In this document: positions 12,028 through 19,955 of the stretch, one piece after another
Layout: each line of letters begins with the position of its first letter
Numbering within the stretch: position 1 is the first letter of the stretch
Virus record (IMG/VR): IMGVR_UViG_3300021130_000008
Location: 1 to 36,363 of that record
DNA length: 36,363 nt
Reading direction: 5' to 3' (one strand)
DNA from: a virus
The notes under the pieces: generated by a model
Seen by the model: only the letters and a program-made list of their open reading frames with translations
The model's database searches: none
Told to the model about the DNA's origin: nothing
Position numbers and translations under genes: made by a program

Positions 12028-13173
12028 CTACATCATCAACCACTGTCGGAAGGATGACTCGAAATCATCACCCGAATTGGGATCTTCCCATGCTTCATCA
12101 ACATAACCAAATGGCACAAGATTTTCTTCAATAAGTCTCTGATTGTTGGTCAAAACTTCAAGTCTTGCATCGTTGTTGCTTAGTTCTTTGAAATAGTCTT
12201 GATGTACTAACCAAGAGAACAGAACGCAGCACATAACAAGGTCATCATGACTTCCTTCTTCGGCTTGATACTTTGCATTGTGTTCAACAAAGCGATACAT
12301 TTCTTGAAGAAGATCATAGTCATTGATTATCAGTTTATCATTCTCAACCAAACTCTTAAAGTTTGCACAACCAATACGCTTGACTTGTGTTGTGGTACGA
12401 ACACCCATAGCAAAACGAACACCGCCCATAGTGCCGCCGATCTTCTGGCCAGCGCGGCCTTTAGTCTTTGTTGACAGTACGTTTTCATATTCTAGATCGT
12501 GCTGTAGAATGTCCACCACCTGTTGGCCAACGTCATTGATTTCAACTAGAACATATGCATCATTGTAATGTCGCGACACGTTGTAGATGATCGTAGGATA
12601 AACCAAAGATTCGATTTCATTATTACGATATTTTGCTACCACTCGATATGGTACGTCTGTGATGTCAAACACAATGAATGCAGAATAATCGATACCAGAA
12701 CCACGGGATGTATCAACCACAGTAGCATAGACGCGACTCTCATTAACGTCCTCATACATATCAACATCATTGTTTGTTAGAATAGGATCAATGTAGGTAA
12801 GCTGTGCTAGTTTGTTACCATCAATCAGTGTATTAGATGAACCAAGGAACTCTGTATTGTGTGACACAACATCATTAGAGTAGTATGTTTCAGATTCTTC
12901 AACGCCTACTGGATCATAAACTATATATGGTCCTTCTGTAAGTAGCGTAATCTTAGATATTTTTTTCCCAGTTATTGTTTGTCCTATTGACAAATCTTTT
13001 GCAAAAGAAAATCCACTATCTGTCAAAAAGACATGTTTAGGTGATACTCTAATAAACGTATCATCAAAATCAAAGCGAATCAAAGTATCTGTAGTTTTTG
13101 ACACCACACCAGAAAAATCTTTATATCCTAAAGGAGTTTTTATTCTGTATCTTGTGTTTTCTTTATACTGCAC
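12028..13173 (-). CDS. 17: Large terminase C-half: C-intein plus nuclease domain (gp17-C)
   Basis: The 381-aa product has two parts. Residues 1-106 are a C-terminal split intein ending VVSHN, with the +1 residue Thr107. Residues 107-381 are the remainder of gp17: TEFLGSSNTLIDG completes the ATPase domain edge, and the RNase H-like nuclease follows with VVDTSRGSGIDYSAF (Asp154), LVEINDVG (Glu211) and SHDDLVM (Asp310/311), the three acidic positions expected for metal binding. The start is probably a GTG at 13173 that overlaps the 3' end of the HNH gene by 11 nt, suggesting coupling. Trans-splicing with the product of 13765-14646 would give a 538-aa terminase, normal for the family (T4 gp17 is 610 aa). 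Confidence 0.93.
   Translation of the reverse strand: MQYKENTRYRIKTPLGYKDFSGVVSKTTDTLIRFDFDDTFIRVSPKHVFLTDSGFSFAKDLSIGQTITGKKISKITLLTEGPYIVYDPVGVEESETYYSNDVVSHNTEFLGSSNTLIDGNKLAQLTYIDPILTNNDVDMYEDVNESRVYATVVDTSRGSGIDYSAFIVFDITDVPYRVVAKYRNNEIESLVYPTIIYNVSRHYNDAYVLVEINDVGQQVVDILQHDLEYENVLSTKTKGRAGQKIGGTMGGVRFAMGVRTTTQVKRIGCANFKSLVENDKLIINDYDLLQEMYRFVEHNAKYQAEEGSHDDLVMCCVLFSWLVHQDYFKELSNNDARLEVLTNNQRLIEENLVPFGYVDEAWEDPNSGDDFESSFRQWLMM
12856..13173 (-). other. C-terminal half of split intein (IntC, 106 aa)
   Basis: The segment runs from the GTG start to the asparagine of VVSHN. It has the block B pattern VSPKHVF (His47) preceded by FDFDDTFIR, block F (VYDPVGVEESETYYSNDVV) and block G (SHN followed by Thr). 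No endonuclease domain is present. TPLGYKDFSGV near the start and YDPVGVEES recall the C part of the AceL-TerL intein, by memory. Confidence 0.9.
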
Positions 13174-13717
13174 TGAAACTTTTACCTGTTACTAGTTTTC
13201 TAATACATGCAGATGTTACGCCATATTCTTCTGCATACTTTTTACTAAATGCTTGTTCATATGATAAAACTTTACCATTCTTTTGAACTTTACCCACTCC
13301 ATCAATATATGGTCTAGTGTTGTATAGTTCAAGTATAGCGTCAACATTTTCACCAAGTTTGCTGTGATAAACTTTACCTCTCTTTGCTTCACTTGCTTTA
13401 GGTAAAGAATATCCACTGATGCCTTTATTCCAAGGTGTGGTTCCCTTTTTTACACCGCCAACACCAGGTCTTTTCTTACCTTTTTGTATATCACTAATAT
13501 ATGTCGGAGACATACCCATTCGTTTTGCTATCATTACACAAGCGCCATAGTCACCCTGCGAATAGTGTATATCATAGTGTTCTTGTATACTCACGCAAGT
13601 AAGATTCATGATATCATTATTGGCATGGTTACCATCAACATGATGTATTTCATATGATCTACCTTCTGTATCTCTCGGAATAGGACCATACTCTTTTTCA
13701 TATATTTTTCTATGCAT
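13163..13717 (-). CDS. HNH homing endonuclease between the split terminase halves
   Basis: The 184-aa protein has an N-terminal HNH motif: YEIHHVDGNHANNDIMNL (His25, His26, Asp28, Asn30, His31), then EHYDIH. The middle has SPTYISDIQKGKKRPGVGG and NUMOD3-like PWNKGISGYSLPKASEAKRG. The C-terminus has YAEEYGVTSACIRKLVTGKS, a helix-turn-helix-like element. AGGAG lies 7 nt before the ATG, with an exact late promoter just upstream. Its stop overlaps the start of the terminase C-half. By position it is probably the nuclease that spreads the fractured terminase arrangement, with a predicted target at the intein-less terminase junction. That target is inferred. Confidence 0.9.
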   Translation of the reverse strand: MHRKIYEKEYGPIPRDTEGRSYEIHHVDGNHANNDIMNLTCVSIQEHYDIHYSQGDYGACVMIAKRMGMSPTYISDIQKGKKRPGVGGVKKGTTPWNKGISGYSLPKASEAKRGKVYHSKLGENVDAILELYNTRPYIDGVGKVQKNGKVLSYEQAFSKKYAEEYGVTSACIRKLVTGKSFSAV

Positions 13718-13738
13718 AAAAATCTCCTAGTTCTATTG

Positions 13739-13746
13739 TATTTATA
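13739..13746 (-). promoter_or_regulatory. T4-type late promoter between the terminase halves
   Basis: The minus strand reads TATAAATA, in the 47-nt gap between the terminase N-half stop and the HNH ATG. It can drive both the HNH gene and the terminase C-half independently of the N-half. Confidence 0.85.
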
Positions 13747-13764
13747 AAACCAAGAAACTCTATC

Positions 13765-14646
13765 TCAAAGTGTATTATATAGTTGACTTATAGGAATGCA
13801 CATATATTCATTTGTTGTTGTATCGTAGACATCTATCATAGTTTCTTCTGCAACACATTCAAATTCCTGTCTCCACTGACGTTCACTGGTGTTTTTGATA
13901 TATTCATCTTTGAATGCTTCGTCGCGACCAGGAACGTCTCTCCAGTTGACAGAACAACGAACGTATGTATTACGCCCTTGCTCCGAATCCGACCACAACT
14001 TATAGAATAAGTTCATCCCATTCGGTGTTGAAGTGATGATAACTTTAGTTGTCTTACCTGAAGTGATCGTAGGATAAACTGAAGCGAAGAATGATTCTTG
14101 AATGTTGTTAGGAACGAACGCAAACTCATCAAGATATAGAAGTGAGAACGTCTTACCACGAACAGCAGAACCACCGGTGGCTGATGCAAGTGCCTTTGAT
14201 CCGTTCTCTAGTTCAATGTCGCCTTCATTCCAACGCTTCACGCCTTGCTGTAACCAGTTGGGAAGATGTTCAAACATCAACTTCACACGGTTAAGGATTT
14301 CTCGTGCCTGCATATCTTTGTTGGCAAGAATAGCAATAGCATAGTTTTTATTGAAAAGAAGTTTATGCAGCATGTAAGCGCAAACTGTAGTTGTCTTACC
14401 GCACTGACGAAGCAGTTTACAAATAGAGAAACGATTTGTCTCAAATGTATTGACCATATTCTCCTGAAATGGCCAAAGATTGAAGTTGATTAGACCGTCG
14501 TCAACACTAACAATCTTACAGTATGTTTTGATAAAGTAAATCTGATCTTCAGCACATCTTTTAAACTCTTTTACCTTATCTAAATCCCACTCAACAGGAA
14601 CGTTGACGGCTTTTAGATTTTGGTTATTATTATAGTATTCTGCCAT
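13765..14646 (-). CDS. 17: Large terminase N-half: ATPase domain plus N-intein (gp17-N)
   Basis: The 293-aa product carries the packaging ATPase: Walker A-like LLRQCGKTTT (Arg80-Thr86), Walker B LLYLDEF (169-175) and coupling motif TSTPNG (205-210). The terminase sequence stops at QEFE (residue 263), where intact homologues continue directly with the FLGSSNTL block. Instead, Cys264 opens a 30-aa N-intein and the gene ends at a TGA. The nuclease half is encoded separately at 12028-13173. The ATG overlaps the gp16 stop (TAATG), so both terminase subunits are coupled. The motor packages DNA through portal gp20 and should need trans-splicing to work. Confidence 0.94.
   Translation of the reverse strand: MAEYYNNNQNLKAVNVPVEWDLDKVKEFKRCAEDQIYFIKTYCKIVSVDDGLINFNLWPFQENMVNTFETNRFSICKLLRQCGKTTTVCAYMLHKLLFNKNYAIAILANKDMQAREILNRVKLMFEHLPNWLQQGVKRWNEGDIELENGSKALASATGGSAVRGKTFSLLYLDEFAFVPNNIQESFFASVYPTITSGKTTKVIITSTPNGMNLFYKLWSDSEQGRNTYVRCSVNWRDVPGRDEAFKDEYIKNTSERQWRQEFECVAEETMIDVYDTTTNEYMCIPISQLYNTL
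13768..13857 (-). other. N-terminal half of split intein (IntN, 30 aa)
   Basis: It starts with Cys (codon 13855-13857) in CVAEETMIDVYD, a block A pattern, and ends ISQLYNTL before TGA. Only block A is present; block B lies in the C part. Classical split inteins have N parts near 90-100 aa, so this is the rare early-split type known from AceL-TerL (25-aa N part, from memory). Confidence 0.9.
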
Positions 14647-15086: not shown

Positions 15087-16166
15087 TTACCCGATGTTTG
15101 TAAACCAATCTTTTATGTAACCATAGTTGCTGTTAGCTTCAATCTCTGATACAGGAATAGAAATGGAAGCATTGCTTGTTGGATTTCCATTCGCATCTAG
15201 ACCAGGAGTAATCTGTACATATTCTGCAATAGGAGAGTTGCCAGAAGTTGTAAAGGTTACGTTAGAGATTAAACCAGTATATATGTTGCTAAGTGAAACC
15301 GATGTCGTATTTACCGCGGTTACTGTTGTATTTGCTGGCAATCCTTGAACGTTTGCTGTAATCCTAGAACCAACATCGATAGAATCAATATCGGCATTTG
15401 TAAAGATTGTGTTACTGCCGTTACTGATTTTGCCAACAAAAGTATCGTTATCACCAGATACACGGAAGTTGATATCAACAGTATTGATGACGCCCTGTGT
15501 TGAGATTGGACCAAAGATATAGCCTTTGAGAACGAACTGAAGTTCCCAAATGATAGCATAGCGGTCATTGAAACTGGCTTCGTAAGTATCTTCATACTGA
15601 ATGTTTTTTAAAACAACAGGAATATCCATCACAATACCCATTTCTGGAATGAGATTGATCGCTGTTGTCCACTCTGGCTTGAAGAATGGCAAAATCTGTT
15701 CTACAATGCGACAAGCATCATCGGCGTTTCTAGCAAGAATCGATAGATCGATGTTGAAGTTATATGGAACAGGATTGTATTGATATCCAAGAATATTAGC
15801 ATTGTCTGTTAGATTTCTATTTTTACCGATGGTGTTTAGTTTACGACTCGAATCGTATTCAACACTTTTGATTTCAAAAGACATTCTAGGTAGAACCTGA
15901 TTGACCTGGCGTAGCAAGTCTGGGTTCTCTTGAAGTCGAACGAGATAACGATCTTTTGGACCATATGATAATGGCACTTTCAGAGTATCAACAGCATCTC
16001 CTGCCTCATTGACGCGATCAATGAGAATATCATTGAACAACGAACCAAACAGAACAATATACTTTCTGATACTGCCAAAATAAAAGTTGTTGCCAAAAAT
16101 AACACTTCTCCCGAATCGGTTTATATAAATATAGTTGTAGATCGCGGTGACTTGGCCGAAACCCAT
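15087..16166 (-). CDS. 15: Proximal tail sheath stabiliser / tail terminator gp15
   Basis: The protein matches T4 gp15 (272 aa): FYFGSIRKYIVLFGSLFND, VPLSYGPKDRYLVRL, VLPRMSFEIKSVEYD, YQYNPVPYNFNIDLSI and RIVEQILPFFKPEW. It caps the tail and contacts sheath and neck. From ATG 16166 it would be 359 aa, but homology begins only at IFGNNFYFGS (residue 23). There the DNA is ATT preceded by GGGAG at 7-nt spacing, so a 337-aa product from a non-canonical AUU start is a serious alternative. The first 22 codons overlap the leader of the antisense endonuclease gene. The C-terminal part contains a recurrent module (GLPANTTVTAVNTTSVSLS), which explains the extra length. Confidence 0.93.
   Translation of the reverse strand: MGFGQVTAIYNYIYINRFGRSVIFGNNFYFGSIRKYIVLFGSLFNDILIDRVNEAGDAVDTLKVPLSYGPKDRYLVRLQENPDLLRQVNQVLPRMSFEIKSVEYDSSRKLNTIGKNRNLTDNANILGYQYNPVPYNFNIDLSILARNADDACRIVEQILPFFKPEWTTAINLIPEMGIVMDIPVVLKNIQYEDTYEASFNDRYAIIWELQFVLKGYIFGPISTQGVINTVDINFRVSGDNDTFVGKISNGSNTIFTNADIDSIDVGSRITANVQGLPANTTVTAVNTTSVSLSNIYTGLISNVTFTTSGNSPIAEYVQITPGLDANGNPTSNASISIPVSEIEANSNYGYIKDWFTNIG
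15245..15434 (-). repeat. Recurrent beta-module inside gp15
   Basis: It runs from GKISNGSNTIF to NVTFTTSG, with the core GLPANTTVTAVNTTSVSLSN. It shares its pattern with modules in gp18 and four other virion proteins. Confidence 0.6.
16124..16131 (+). promoter_or_regulatory. Plus-strand late promoter for the antisense endonuclease gene
   Basis: The plus strand reads TATAAATA, 64 nt before the endonuclease ATG at 16196. It lies inside the 5' end of the gp15 reading frame and faces the gp15 promoter at 16216-16223. Confidence 0.75.
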
Positions 16167-16195
16167 CTACTCTAACGCTTTGAAGGAGCATCAGC

Positions 16196-16924
16196 ATGTA
16201 TTGTACATATATTACTATTTATATTGGCAACAAACTTCCTCCGTTCTATATCGGTTACAGCACGATATCCAAAATCAATAGTGGATATCATGGAACCGTT
16301 ACATCAAAAAAACACAAGAAAGTTTGGATTGAAGAGATGAAGCGAAATCCTTCATTTTTCAAAACCAAAATCATAAAAATATTTGATACAAGAGAATCTG
16401 CTATAAATCACGAATCTTATCTACACAAACACTTCAATGTAGATGTAAGTCCTATGTATATAAATGAAGCGATATCCAACATTCGTTGGAGAAATTCTGG
16501 TGGTTATAAACTTTCAGAAGAAACAAAACAAAAACAAAGAAATAGTTTTACTGTGGAAAGATTGTCTAAGATGTCAAGCGAAGCTTCAATCAGATGGTCT
16601 AATAAATCAGAAGAAGAAAAGGAAAATTGCAGAAAAAGATTTATGAAATATAGAGTAAATCCCAAATCACGAGAGGAAAACGATAGATATAAAGTTCCTA
16701 GAACAAATGACGAAAAGAATAGTATATCTATAGGAACAAAAGAAGCAATGAATAATCAAGAACTACGCGAACGTTTGTCAGAAAAAGCAAAGGCAAGATG
16801 CACAGACGAATGGAAAGCAGCTTCGGCAGATAGAAACAAACATAGAGTCTCTTGTGTTTTGTGTAGAAAAGAAATGGCCAGATGTGGCTTTCCTATGCAC
16901 TTTGCTAGAAAGCACAAAATCTAA
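16196..16924 (+). CDS. GIY-YIG homing endonuclease, only plus-strand gene
   Basis: The 242-aa protein has TIYIG and FYIGYS as GIY-YIG elements, the conserved Glu in INHESYL, and YINEA with the conserved Asn. NUMOD3-like helices follow (LSEETKQKQRNSFT). The C-terminus has a zinc finger: Cys220, Cys223, His235 and His240 (CVLC...HFARKH). AAGGAG lies 7 nt before the ATG. The gene is inserted antisense between gp14 and gp15: its TAA overlaps the gp14 TAG tail to tail by two bases, and its 5' end contains the gp15 late promoter. It is the only gene opposing the late transcription direction. Confidence 0.9.
   Translation: MYCTYITIYIGNKLPPFYIGYSTISKINSGYHGTVTSKKHKKVWIEEMKRNPSFFKTKIIKIFDTRESAINHESYLHKHFNVDVSPMYINEAISNIRWRNSGGYKLSEETKQKQRNSFTVERLSKMSSEASIRWSNKSEEEKENCRKRFMKYRVNPKSREENDRYKVPRTNDEKNSISIGTKEAMNNQELRERLSEKAKARCTDEWKAASADRNKHRVSCVLCRKEMARCGFPMHFARKHKI
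16216..16223 (-). promoter_or_regulatory. T4-type late promoter for gp15, inside the endonuclease ORF
   Basis: The minus strand reads TATAAATA, 50 nt upstream of gp15 ATG 16166. It is embedded in codons 7-10 of the plus-strand endonuclease gene. Confidence 0.75.
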
Positions 16925-17640
16925 ATGTCGTTCCCAAATGGATTAGTAACCGACCAGTCCACGAAGGTGTTTGCCAAAGCTACAAACTCTTCATTCTGTG
17001 TTGATGGATCGATTTCATCTAGAACAAAAGTTTCGTTGACAATATCATAACCAGCTTCGGTAATAAGATCGTAACTTGCTTCGGTGAGATACCAGAAGTT
17101 ACTGTCTGCCACTGAATAGTTCTGTTGGATCGAATCGATGTTTGCGATGCCAGTGTTGAACTGTTCCGAATCGTAGTTGAACTTCTCTAGCTGCAACTCA
17201 AAGTATTGTAGCGATCCAGTCTGGTAGAAGGATCTTTCATGTTCAACGAACTTGATTTCAAAAATACCAGTTGTGAATGGAAAGTAAACAAGATCACCTT
17301 CTTGTGGGCGAATCAAGTTGTATATGCTACCAATGTCTTGTGCGAACCTACGACGACTCACGGACAGCGTAAGTTTGTCTGCTACGTTTAGCCCGAACTT
17401 GCTGAGTAGATCGCCTTCACCTTGGAAACCTTCATAATCATTAATATACATTTCAAGTGGAATAGCCACGTTAAATGAAGACGTTGGTGCTTCATCAAAT
17501 AACTTATCAATATAGTTTGTTGTTCTCGGAAGATAATAGCAATCGATACCAAAAATCTGAATCATTTCGTCTGCTAGATTCTGTAGCAGATTCTGCTCAG
17601 GATTGTAATCAGAGTTTCGAAAGAAAAACGATGTCGGCAC
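16921..17640 (-). CDS. 14: Neck protein gp14
   Basis: The 239-aa protein resembles T4 gp14 (256 aa): IQIFGIDCYYLPRTTNYID, PLEMYINDYEGFQGEGDLLS, FGLNVADKLTLSVSRRRF, PQEGDLVYFPFTTGIFEIKF and FYQTGSLQYFELQLEKFNYD. With gp13 it forms the neck that closes the filled head and receives the tail. The start is a GTG at 17640 with AGGA (17650-17653) 9 nt upstream. This Shine-Dalgarno lies in one arm of a 16-bp inverted repeat, and the late promoter lies in the loop between the arms. Its stop overlaps that of the antisense endonuclease gene. Confidence 0.94.
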   Translation of the reverse strand: MPTSFFFRNSDYNPEQNLLQNLADEMIQIFGIDCYYLPRTTNYIDKLFDEAPTSSFNVAIPLEMYINDYEGFQGEGDLLSKFGLNVADKLTLSVSRRRFAQDIGSIYNLIRPQEGDLVYFPFTTGIFEIKFVEHERSFYQTGSLQYFELQLEKFNYDSEQFNTGIANIDSIQQNYSVADSNFWYLTEASYDLITEAGYDIVNETFVLDEIDPSTQNEEFVALANTFVDWSVTNPFGNDI

Positions 17641-17646
17641 TTTTGA

Positions 17647-17707
17647 TGATCCTAAAGATTGTTTTATGTTCTATTTATAGAATATCTATTGACAATCTTT
17701 AGGATCA
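17647..17707 (-). promoter_or_regulatory. 16-bp inverted repeat around gp14 late promoter and RBS
   Basis: TGATCCTAAAGATTGT (17647-17662) and its exact reverse complement (17692-17707) enclose a 29-nt loop. The loop holds TATAAATA, and the 3' arm of the minus transcript contains the gp14 Shine-Dalgarno AGGA. Read-through RNA would fold and hide the site. RNA started in the loop, near 17666, lacks the 5' arm. Confidence 0.85.
17672..17679 (-). promoter_or_regulatory. T4-type late promoter for gp14
   Basis: The minus strand reads TATAAATA, 32 nt before the gp14 GTG and within the loop of the inverted repeat. Confidence 0.85.
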
Positions 17708-17740
17708 GTGTATACTCAGTAATGTACTGTAAGATATAGG

Positions 17741-18445
17741 TTAGGTAGTATATCCAGCATCTATTAGTGTATTCCACTTTTCAGTGTTTGGTTTAGCCAT
17801 CTTTCTGATGCCATCTTTGTACAATGCTCGTCTGCCACTCATAGAATCTGATTGTTTCTTTTTTTGATCTTCACTCTTCGGAACATCTTTCATTCTATTA
17901 GAAACCGAAACTCTATGATTTTCAGATTTATTATACTCAATCATTCTTTCTCTGGATGCCTGTATATCCTCTTGTGTTTGAGGAGGAAGTATTCTTTTTG
18001 ACATCCCTATATTAAACTTTTCAATATATGAAGGATTGGATTTCTGTTCTAAAGCTTTTCTTCTTAGATTTTCTTTATGTTCTTTTGACTTAGCAATGCC
18101 TTTGCCCGTTGTGTTCTTTTGTATTTTGGTAAGAACTCCCTTTTCATAATCTATAAACTTTGCTGTGTTTCCACCATCTAATCCGTTCTCTTCTCTTAAG
18201 TTTGCCCATAGATCAGATTCAACTATATTATTTTCTTTTGAGAACTTTAAAGCAAACTCTGTCGCTTCATGTTGATTTGTGAAATGAAACGTTTCTAGCG
18301 TAATATGCTTTGCATTATGTTTGCTTAAGTGTGATTTCCAATAAACACCAGAACCGCCATATACATATGGATTATCTTGCTCTGTTTTGCCAAAATACTT
18401 TAAATCACAGTGGGAACATTGTTTGACGTATAGATAAATATTCAT
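17741..18445 (-). CDS. GIY-YIG homing endonuclease between gp13 and gp14
   Basis: The 234-aa protein starts at ATG 18445 (MNIYLYVKQ), chosen because GGAG lies 8 nt upstream and the GIY-YIG domain begins there. A longer frame from a TTG at 18502 has no such support. The core is IYLYVKQ and LKYFGKT, then PYVYGGSGVYWKSHLSKHN, a well-known phage GIY-YIG subfamily pattern, and WANLREENGLDGGN with the conserved Asn. The C-terminal half is basic, with NUMOD-like helices (GKGIAKSKEHKENLRRKALE). A structured leader and a TATAAGTA late-type box precede it. It lies upstream of the gp14 hairpin, so its mRNA would run into a masked gp14 RBS. Confidence 0.88.
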   Translation of the reverse strand: MNIYLYVKQCSHCDLKYFGKTEQDNPYVYGGSGVYWKSHLSKHNAKHITLETFHFTNQHEATEFALKFSKENNIVESDLWANLREENGLDGGNTAKFIDYEKGVLTKIQKNTTGKGIAKSKEHKENLRRKALEQKSNPSYIEKFNIGMSKRILPPQTQEDIQASRERMIEYNKSENHRVSVSNRMKDVPKSEDQKKKQSDSMSGRRALYKDGIRKMAKPNTEKWNTLIDAGYTT

Positions 18446-18469
18446 GCTGATTCTCCTGCATAGAGTTAG

Positions 18470-18501
18470 TGTGGGTGGATGCTCTAACATCGTGACCCAC
18501 A
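18470..18501 (-). repeat. Hairpin in the leader of the GIY-YIG gene
   Basis: TGTGGGT (18470-18476) pairs with ACCCACA (18495-18501), with an inner GATG/CATC pairing. The predicted late start (about 18498) falls in the first arm on the minus strand. Confidence 0.5.
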
Positions 18502-18503
18502 AC

Positions 18504-18511
18504 TACTTATA
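18504..18511 (-). promoter_or_regulatory. Probable late promoter variant for GIY-YIG gene
   Basis: The minus strand reads TATAAGTA, the same one-base variant as before gp20, in the 100-nt gap after gp13. Confidence 0.55.
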
Positions 18512-18545: not shown

Positions 18546-19286
18546 TTATCCGATCATGTCCGCGCAAGGCAATGACCAAGTGGTATACATCTCTTGTTCT
18601 AGTCTATCAATCTCTTTTTGAGCATCATCTCTGATCTTATCACCGTTAAACTTGTTTCCACCTGGTAGATTGATACCTGTATACTTTGTTAAGTTGTCGC
18701 CCCATTGACGCTTGACTAGTGCAGCAGCATATTGTGTCAACCAACGATCTGACCATACTCCACCATATACGGTTGGATCAATGATCTGATATGCTTCAAC
18801 GATTAAGAAGCTTCCTGGTTGTACAATGTCCCAAGCCATATCTAGATATAGAATGTTGTTGTAACGATTGAAGCGAAGTGGCTGTTGACCGACTAGAAGC
18901 TGTTCAAGAAACTGAATATGCTGCATAGCAAGATAGTATGGTACCATCGTTGTAGCAGTCAAGTCATATAGATCGTTCAATGTGATCTGATAACGAATGT
19001 TGAACAGATTGTTTGATGATAATGATTCACCAACAGGGAATAGATTGACTGCACCAATGATGTTCGATGGTAGAGTGATATACTGATTTTCAATATCAGT
19101 TGGAGTTACCTGATACTTGTAATAGGTCTTTTCAGAACCTTCGAAGTGATAGTCCCAGAAGAATGTCAAAGCTTCATCAATACGATCAGAAACTTGATCG
19201 TCATCAACGTTGATATCAATAACAGGCGCACCTAGACGGCGAAGAATGTAATATTTAAATTCATCCCTATTAGTAGGTATTGACAT
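18546..19286 (-). CDS. 13: Neck protein gp13
   Basis: The 246-aa protein matches T4 gp13: EFKYYILRRLGAPVIDINVD, RIDEALTFFWDYHFEGSEKT, YITLPSNIIGAVNLFPV and TDRW-like WSDRWLTQYAAALVKRQWG. The C-terminus is helical (DAQKEIDRLEQEM). With gp14 it completes the head after packaging. The ATG at 19286 lies 17 nt inside the 3' end of the upstream endonuclease gene, with AGAGGA as RBS. Its first 23 codons are a recoded duplicate of a short ORF at 19884-19955, so the present start was created with the endonuclease insertion. Confidence 0.95.
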   Translation of the reverse strand: MSIPTNRDEFKYYILRRLGAPVIDINVDDDQVSDRIDEALTFFWDYHFEGSEKTYYKYQVTPTDIENQYITLPSNIIGAVNLFPVGESLSSNNLFNIRYQITLNDLYDLTATTMVPYYLAMQHIQFLEQLLVGQQPLRFNRYNNILYLDMAWDIVQPGSFLIVEAYQIIDPTVYGGVWSDRWLTQYAAALVKRQWGDNLTKYTGINLPGGNKFNGDKIRDDAQKEIDRLEQEMYTTWSLPCADMIG

Positions 19287-19887
19287 TTTCTATATTCCTC
19301 TTTGTCTTATACTTCTTGTTGTTTTCACCAACTTCTGGTCTAATCTTTCCGTGCATAGGATTATTAACGCCAGACATTCTTTCAGACATTTTACGTTTTC
19401 TTTCCTCTGACCATTTTGTTCCTTTCATAGGATTGTTGGTCAGTGCTTTTTGTCTTCTTTTTTCTATTATGTCCGGTCTTTTATTGAACTCTACAGTATC
19501 TGGTCTTTTTCTTCCATACATAGGATTCTTTTCACCTACGTGTTGTCCTGTTCTGGTTTTACTTATATTGCTTTTAACTTCTTCTGTAAATATGACAGCA
19601 CGACCGTCGTGTTTGTTTAACCACACATTATTGGTTTCTCTAATTTTCAATCTTCTTAAAACTTTATGTTCCCATTCTATAGAATCTTTAGCATCTTTGA
19701 ACGTTTTTCTTATCTCGAACTCAAAAGAATCGTCGCCATATTCTTTTCTTAGTGATTTAACGACATTAGAAGATGTGAAATACTTTGTCCAGAAATCGTC
19801 AGGATGACATCCTTCTTTATATCTTACACCATAATAGAACATATTTGTCGGTATATGATGTAGTAAGTAGGTATATGGTGTTGTCAT
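19270..19887 (-). CDS. GIY-YIG homing endonuclease inserted in the gp13 5' end
   Basis: The 205-aa protein has YTYLLHH and FYYGVRYKEGC as GIY-YIG elements, FTSSNVVKSLRKEYGDDSF, EIRKTFKDA, the conserved Glu in EWEHKVLRRL and the Asn in VWLNKHDG. At least three NUMOD3 repeats follow (NPMYGRKR, NPMKGTKWSEERKRKMSERM, NPMHGKIRPE). It is a close paralogue of the gene at 30403-31104. Its ATG overlaps the TGA of a 23-codon gp13-like leader (ATGA), and its last codons overlap the start of functional gp13. It therefore sits precisely within the gp13 gene after codon 23 of the leader copy. Confidence 0.92.
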   Translation of the reverse strand: MTTPYTYLLHHIPTNMFYYGVRYKEGCHPDDFWTKYFTSSNVVKSLRKEYGDDSFEFEIRKTFKDAKDSIEWEHKVLRRLKIRETNNVWLNKHDGRAVIFTEEVKSNISKTRTGQHVGEKNPMYGRKRPDTVEFNKRPDIIEKRRQKALTNNPMKGTKWSEERKRKMSERMSGVNNPMHGKIRPEVGENNKKYKTKRNIENVNTY

Positions 19888-19955
19888 ATAACAGGAGCGC
19901 CAAGTCTTCTGAGTAGATAGTATTTGAACTGTTCTCTTGAGTTTGGAACTGCCAT
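19884..19955 (-). pseudogene. Duplicated gp13 5' end (23-codon leader ORF)
   Basis: From ATG 19955 (RBS AGGAAG) it encodes MAVPNSREQFKYYLLRRLGA followed by PVI and a TGA at 19884-19886. It matches residues 1-23 of gp13 (MSIPTNRDEFKYYILRRLGAPVI) at 16 identical positions, yet 12 of those 16 use different codons. The TGA overlaps the endonuclease ATG. It is either the original gp13 start, cut off by the insertion, or a leader brought with it. It now probably serves to couple translation of the endonuclease. Confidence 0.85.

Follow-up and report, generated by a model that had tools for sequence, protein, structure and literature searches.

The gp14 leader holds a perfect inverted repeat around a late promoter

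The window analysed here, i.e. the whole stretch of 36,363 bases, is an IMG/VR record from an uncultured, T4-like phage and carries T4-like neck, tail and terminase genes. The gene for the neck protein gp14 (head closure Hc2; PF11649, 1.3e-36; phrog_460, 2.5e-66) lies on the minus strand at 16921..17640, with a GTG start codon read from the sequence at 17640-17638. Between it and the gene for the neck protein gp13 (18546..19286, minus strand; phrog_211, 3.8e-37) we found HEG A, a GIY-YIG-like homing endonuclease gene (17741..18445, minus strand). It was recognised by its motif and by a weak similarity to HEG C of the same window, and had no match in Pfam or PHROG.

Read 5' to 3' on the minus strand, the gp14 leader consists of TGATCCTAAAGATTGT, a 29-nt loop that includes TATAAATA, then ACAATCTTTAGGATCA, TCAAAA and the GTG at 17640. 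A previous sequence-only reading had proposed a 16-bp perfect inverted repeat around the gp14 promoter, with the AGGA used for the GTG start inside its 3' arm, and both statements were borne out. The inverted-repeat search returned a 5' arm at 17707-17692 and a 3' arm at 17662-17647, complementary at 16/16 positions, and the window has no other perfect inverted repeat of 11 or more bp whose loop measures 3-60 nt. The Shine-Dalgarno AGGA (17653-17650) lies within the 3' arm, 9 nt 5' of the GTG. The loop contains a T4-type late promoter, TATAAATA (17672..17679, minus strand); 13 copies of this sequence were observed in the window versus 2.1 expected, the majority of them 5' of genes. Judging from T4 late-promoter geometry, late gp14 RNA would start near 17666, and the 5' arm would be present only in RNA reading through from upstream.

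Read-through RNA is predicted to hide the gp14 start site

The minus-strand fold of the gp14 leader has an energy of -23.2 kcal/mol (z = -6.4), equalled by 0/200 shuffles, and the duplex between the upstream arm and the gp14 start region has -25.5 kcal/mol, equalled by 0/2000. A chance origin of the hairpin is ruled out by these shuffles together with the uniqueness of the repeat in the window. The cost of opening the span from the Shine-Dalgarno sequence to the start codon was computed for 130 nt of leader plus 60 nt of gene. The predicted cost was 15.6 kcal/mol for the long gp14 RNA versus 4.7 kcal/mol for a short RNA starting at -26 from the GTG; the identical computation gave 15.8 (long) and 3.9 (short) kcal/mol for T4 gene e, and 7.0 and 5.0 kcal/mol, respectively, for T4 soc. 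As the predicted unpaired fraction of the Shine-Dalgarno sequence in the long RNA was 0.00, the prediction agrees with the earlier claim that read-through RNA carrying both arms hides the ribosome-binding site. Late gp14 RNA devoid of the 5' arm is in turn predicted to open the start site, with the Shine-Dalgarno sequence still locally paired in the model (mean unpaired 0.04-0.06), and thus the relief would be a difference in energy cost rather than full exposure.

Two unrelated helices surround the same promoter in relatives

In L185, a relative whose gp13 DNA is 84.5% identical to that of the window, the gp14 leader forms a 14-bp helix (14/16 pairs). Within the 75-nt leader the arms are changed at 0/28 positions, 14 nt of the 5' arm being intact, and the remainder at 10/47; by our arithmetic, such a pattern has a probability of about 0.006 if the ten differences fall at random across the 75 positions. 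The hairpin of the window (type 1) was also found in L156, where the upstream gene ends like HEG B, a gene of GIY-YIG type. L178-L184 possess a type 2 helix of 15 bp with one mismatch, in which AAGTTGGTGGACAAG is paired with CTTGCCCACCAACTT; it buries a TTG start codon and the first gp14 codons around the same late promoter as in the window. L178-L181 and L182-L184 alike have GTCAATAGATATTCT in the loop as well as the late promoter, as the window does, and their 5' arm AAGTTGGTGGACAAG is unrelated to that of the window. The promoter is kept in L156, L185, L178 and L182.

When arms and start regions were swapped, the window arm gave -25.5 with its own start region versus -8.1 with the type 2 region, and the L178 arm gave -24.4 with its own versus -10.7 with that of the window. 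Shuffles equalled the arm/start-region duplex in 0/2000 cases for the window, 0/2000 for L178 and 6/2000 for L185. A strong duplex thus forms only where a 5' arm meets the start region of its own type. Pairing is conserved in relatives, as the 14 bp of L185, the equivalent helix of L178-L184 and the swap test indicate; no compensatory changes were found within type 1 hairpins. The comparative support therefore consists in the exchange of whole helices. These sequence comparisons with relatives are the strongest support for a switch at gp14.

An exact search of viral contigs for the 3' arm found 79 stretches; the ones examined at gp14 proved to be close copies, plus L156. Searching with the conserved-loop pattern yielded no additional type of gp14 hairpin, only 7 new loci without a gp14 leader. 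Among annotated phages there was no near relative of the gp14 leader, and an Rfam scan of the window and of five relatives detected no family.

The hairpin stays with gp14 while junction genes change

The gp13 gene nearly abuts gp14 in insert-free relatives, and across most of the gp14 loci retrieved from IMG/VR the gap between them is 0-23 nt, without a late promoter. Where the junction has been opened, it holds HEG A (the window, L083-L085), HEG B (L003, L015, L031, L058, L178, L202), a 490-aa gene that is Vsr-like by motif (L185) or other inserts (L009, L013, L034). The gp14 hairpin stands behind HEG A, HEG B (L156, L178), the Vsr-like gene (L185), or no gene at all (L182-L184, and L221, which has the same leader as L182-L184 and no endonuclease gene at the junction). 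With three unrelated endonuclease genes as upstream neighbours, and none in other genomes, the hairpin is a property of the gp14 leader rather than of an intruder.

The sequence-only reading saw the purpose of the hairpin in shielding gp14 from the transcripts of the intruding endonuclease gene. In its favour, all hairpin leaders fall in one clade, in which gp13 and gp14 are no longer contiguous, in most cases owing to endonuclease genes, and the insert-free close outgroups L186 and L187 have neither promoter nor hairpin. Between the HEG A stop and the hairpin's 5' arm there are 33 nt, and hence terminating ribosomes would not open the hairpin. However, the hairpin is kept in L182-L184 without an endonuclease gene and is missing from L003, L202, L015, L031 and L058 in spite of one; a late promoter without a hairpin precedes gp14 in the insert-bearing phages L003, L202 and L207. 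Read-through from gp13 would, moreover, be silenced equally. The original claim is supported only in part, and we regard a purpose so specific as rather doubtful; insulation is one possible reason for the hairpin, not the demonstrated one. Upstream of gp14 the search turned up no strong early promoter in sense orientation, sense sigma70-like sites there being at chance level, so early read-through into gp14 is an assumption. The promoters recognised before HEG A and before a truncated gp13 copy are of late type.

Readings that do not involve translation were weighed as well. A 14-16 bp intergenic helix retained in relatives might be an RNA-processing or stability element, e.g. a site for a duplex-specific RNase, separating HEG/gp13 RNA from gp14 RNA. 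This seems improbable, since in either type the helix covers the start site, which processing does not need, and typical double-strand cutters act on longer helices. The position after a gene end would suit an intrinsic terminator of the upstream transcript, for which a GC-rich stem and a T run are expected. We rejected this as extremely improbable: the stem is AU-rich, the loop has 29 nt, no T run follows either arm, and the terminator scan found none here. Finally, the dyad brackets a promoter and could be bound as DNA by a protein such as an endonuclease autorepressor, for which I-TevI provides a precedent (PMC2988022). Both dyads surround the same promoter, yet the arms of type 1 and those of type 2 have unrelated sequences and the structure survives a change of endonuclease, which makes such binding very improbable.

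Other leaders and hairpins of the window

HEG A has a structured leader of its own, 61 nt long (18446..18506, minus strand; model R1, 79.4 bits, with covariation), and TATAAGTA lies before it at 18511-18504 (minus strand). A second leader of this type is located at 16131-16195 on the plus strand (model R1, alignment A2). The layout is a late-type promoter, a hairpin TGTNNNTCRCG...CCANNNAC, then CTCTAACGCTNNNNAGGAGCATCAGC and ATG, and it is followed by homing endonuclease genes that are unrelated to one another: several of GIY-YIG and HNH type and one that is Vsr-like. We counted 111 matches in 86 sources searched, and the leader stands before such genes in about 80 fetched viral contigs; part of these loci were fetched by the 3' motif, and thus the count is no census. 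Covariation is strong, with 97.6% of cells paired and compensatory changes at 10/10 pairs. The leader had no Rfam family at the gathering threshold and no match among annotated phages, and its 12-nt core was not found in the phage papers listed. It is possibly more novel than the gp14 hairpin.

An HNH gene starting at 13717 also has a late-promoter/RBS hairpin (13719-13761, minus strand; 18 bp, Shine-Dalgarno sequence buried), and L261 and L263/L264 have helices of other sequence at this position. Judging by translations, this HNH gene appears to lie between intein-like halves of a split gene for the terminase large subunit gp17 (12028-14646, minus strand), a layout which we take to resemble a fractured-gene arrangement with split inteins. 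The 5' end of gp13 is duplicated (19270-19955, minus strand): first comes a truncated copy of 23 codons (MAVPNSREQFKYYLLRRLGAPVI, stop), then HEG C, which overlaps the stop of this copy with its ATG and a recoded gp13 start with its end. The HEG C insertion seems to rebuild the N terminus of the host gene. Another homing endonuclease gene (16196-16924, plus strand; phrog_10820, phrog_314) is placed between gp14 and gp15 in antisense orientation and overlaps the gp14 end by 4 nt.

In five distant T4-like contigs (L065, L035, L033, L017, L078) inspection by eye revealed a late promoter within a start-site hairpin in the gp13 leader, with mostly unrelated arm sequences. Of 64 non-redundant gp13 leaders with a late-promoter motif, 7 reached p <= 0.01 versus 3/64 in a coding control, and no such hairpin was seen by eye in the gp13 leader of six annotated isolates. 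Recurrence of the hairpin switch at gp13 has moderate statistical backing and is only a suggestion.

A probable T4-type switch at a neck gene

We consider it probable that the gp14 leader owns a translational switch of the T4 type. In this scenario, transcripts that run on from gp13 or HEG A would carry both arms and hide the ribosome-binding site, and RNA from the internal late promoter, devoid of the 5' arm, would have a site about 11 kcal/mol cheaper to open. Upstream RNA, early or of another kind, is presumed to reach gp14. The protein would be made almost solely from its own late transcript, and its synthesis might thus be freed from read-through after the usual gp13-gp14 contiguity had been broken. 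The switch would persist while endonuclease genes at the junction are swapped or missing.

A broader reading, which we offer tentatively and hold to be possible rather than probable, is that the junction is a homing hot spot where a gp14-owned insulator, a start-site hairpin with a late promoter inside, is kept as endonuclease genes turn over, the hairpin arms being rewritten as a matched pair. The 5' arm would double as the 16-nt spacer of an opposite-strand host-type promoter that is directed away from gp14 and antisense to both gp13 and the endonuclease gene. This putative sigma70-like promoter (TTGACA-16-TATACT; 17689..17716, plus strand) matches at 11/12 positions in the window, 12/12 in L185 and 11/12 in L178/L182, with equal spacing; in L178/L182 the spacer sequence has turned over and its length has not changed. 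Such matches number 3 in the whole window versus 1-5 in shuffles, which is the chance level, and the promoter is a lead, not a result.

The hairpin switch at gp14 is a known T4 mechanism at a new gene, and extends it to a neck gene. It also offers natural comparative evidence of unusual quality, one promoter with two unrelated helices, each matched to its own start site. Here a structural gene retains a promoter and a probable translational lock of its own even as the unrelated homing endonuclease genes next to it are swapped, a case that bears on how phages tolerate insertions in late operons.

The logic by which long RNA is off and late RNA is on has been described for T4 e, soc, 49 and I-TevI and for Aeh1 mobE (PMC3014915, PMC2988022). 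The earlier suggestion that gp14 follows it is well supported by the gene e-like anatomy and energetics, the L185 arm and the equivalent L178-L184 helix. T4 gene e (lysozyme) likewise has TATAAATA between the arms, the RBS in the 3' arm and a blocked long early RNA (PMC3014915), and its computed opening costs nearly equal those of gp14. On the other hand, e is a lysis gene with two late promoters and no endonuclease gene directly upstream, and its long RNA, unlike that of gp14, is a known early transcript (PMC3014915). T4 soc resembles gp14 as a virion protein gene with a late promoter and a start-site hairpin (PMC3014915, PMC2988022), and its start codon is buried as in type 2 leaders; its computed helix is weaker, and it encodes a capsid accessory protein rather than a neck protein. 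It also adjoins the upstream GIY-YIG endonuclease gene segF, so the placement directly behind an endonuclease gene, to which the sequence-only reading pointed, is not unprecedented. I-TevI and Aeh1 mobE share with gp14 a late promoter within the hairpin and an RBS sequestered on read-through RNA (PMC2988022, PMC3014915). There, as at the HNH gene at 13717, the endonuclease is itself the controlled gene, whereas at gp14 a structural gene behind the endonuclease would be controlled.
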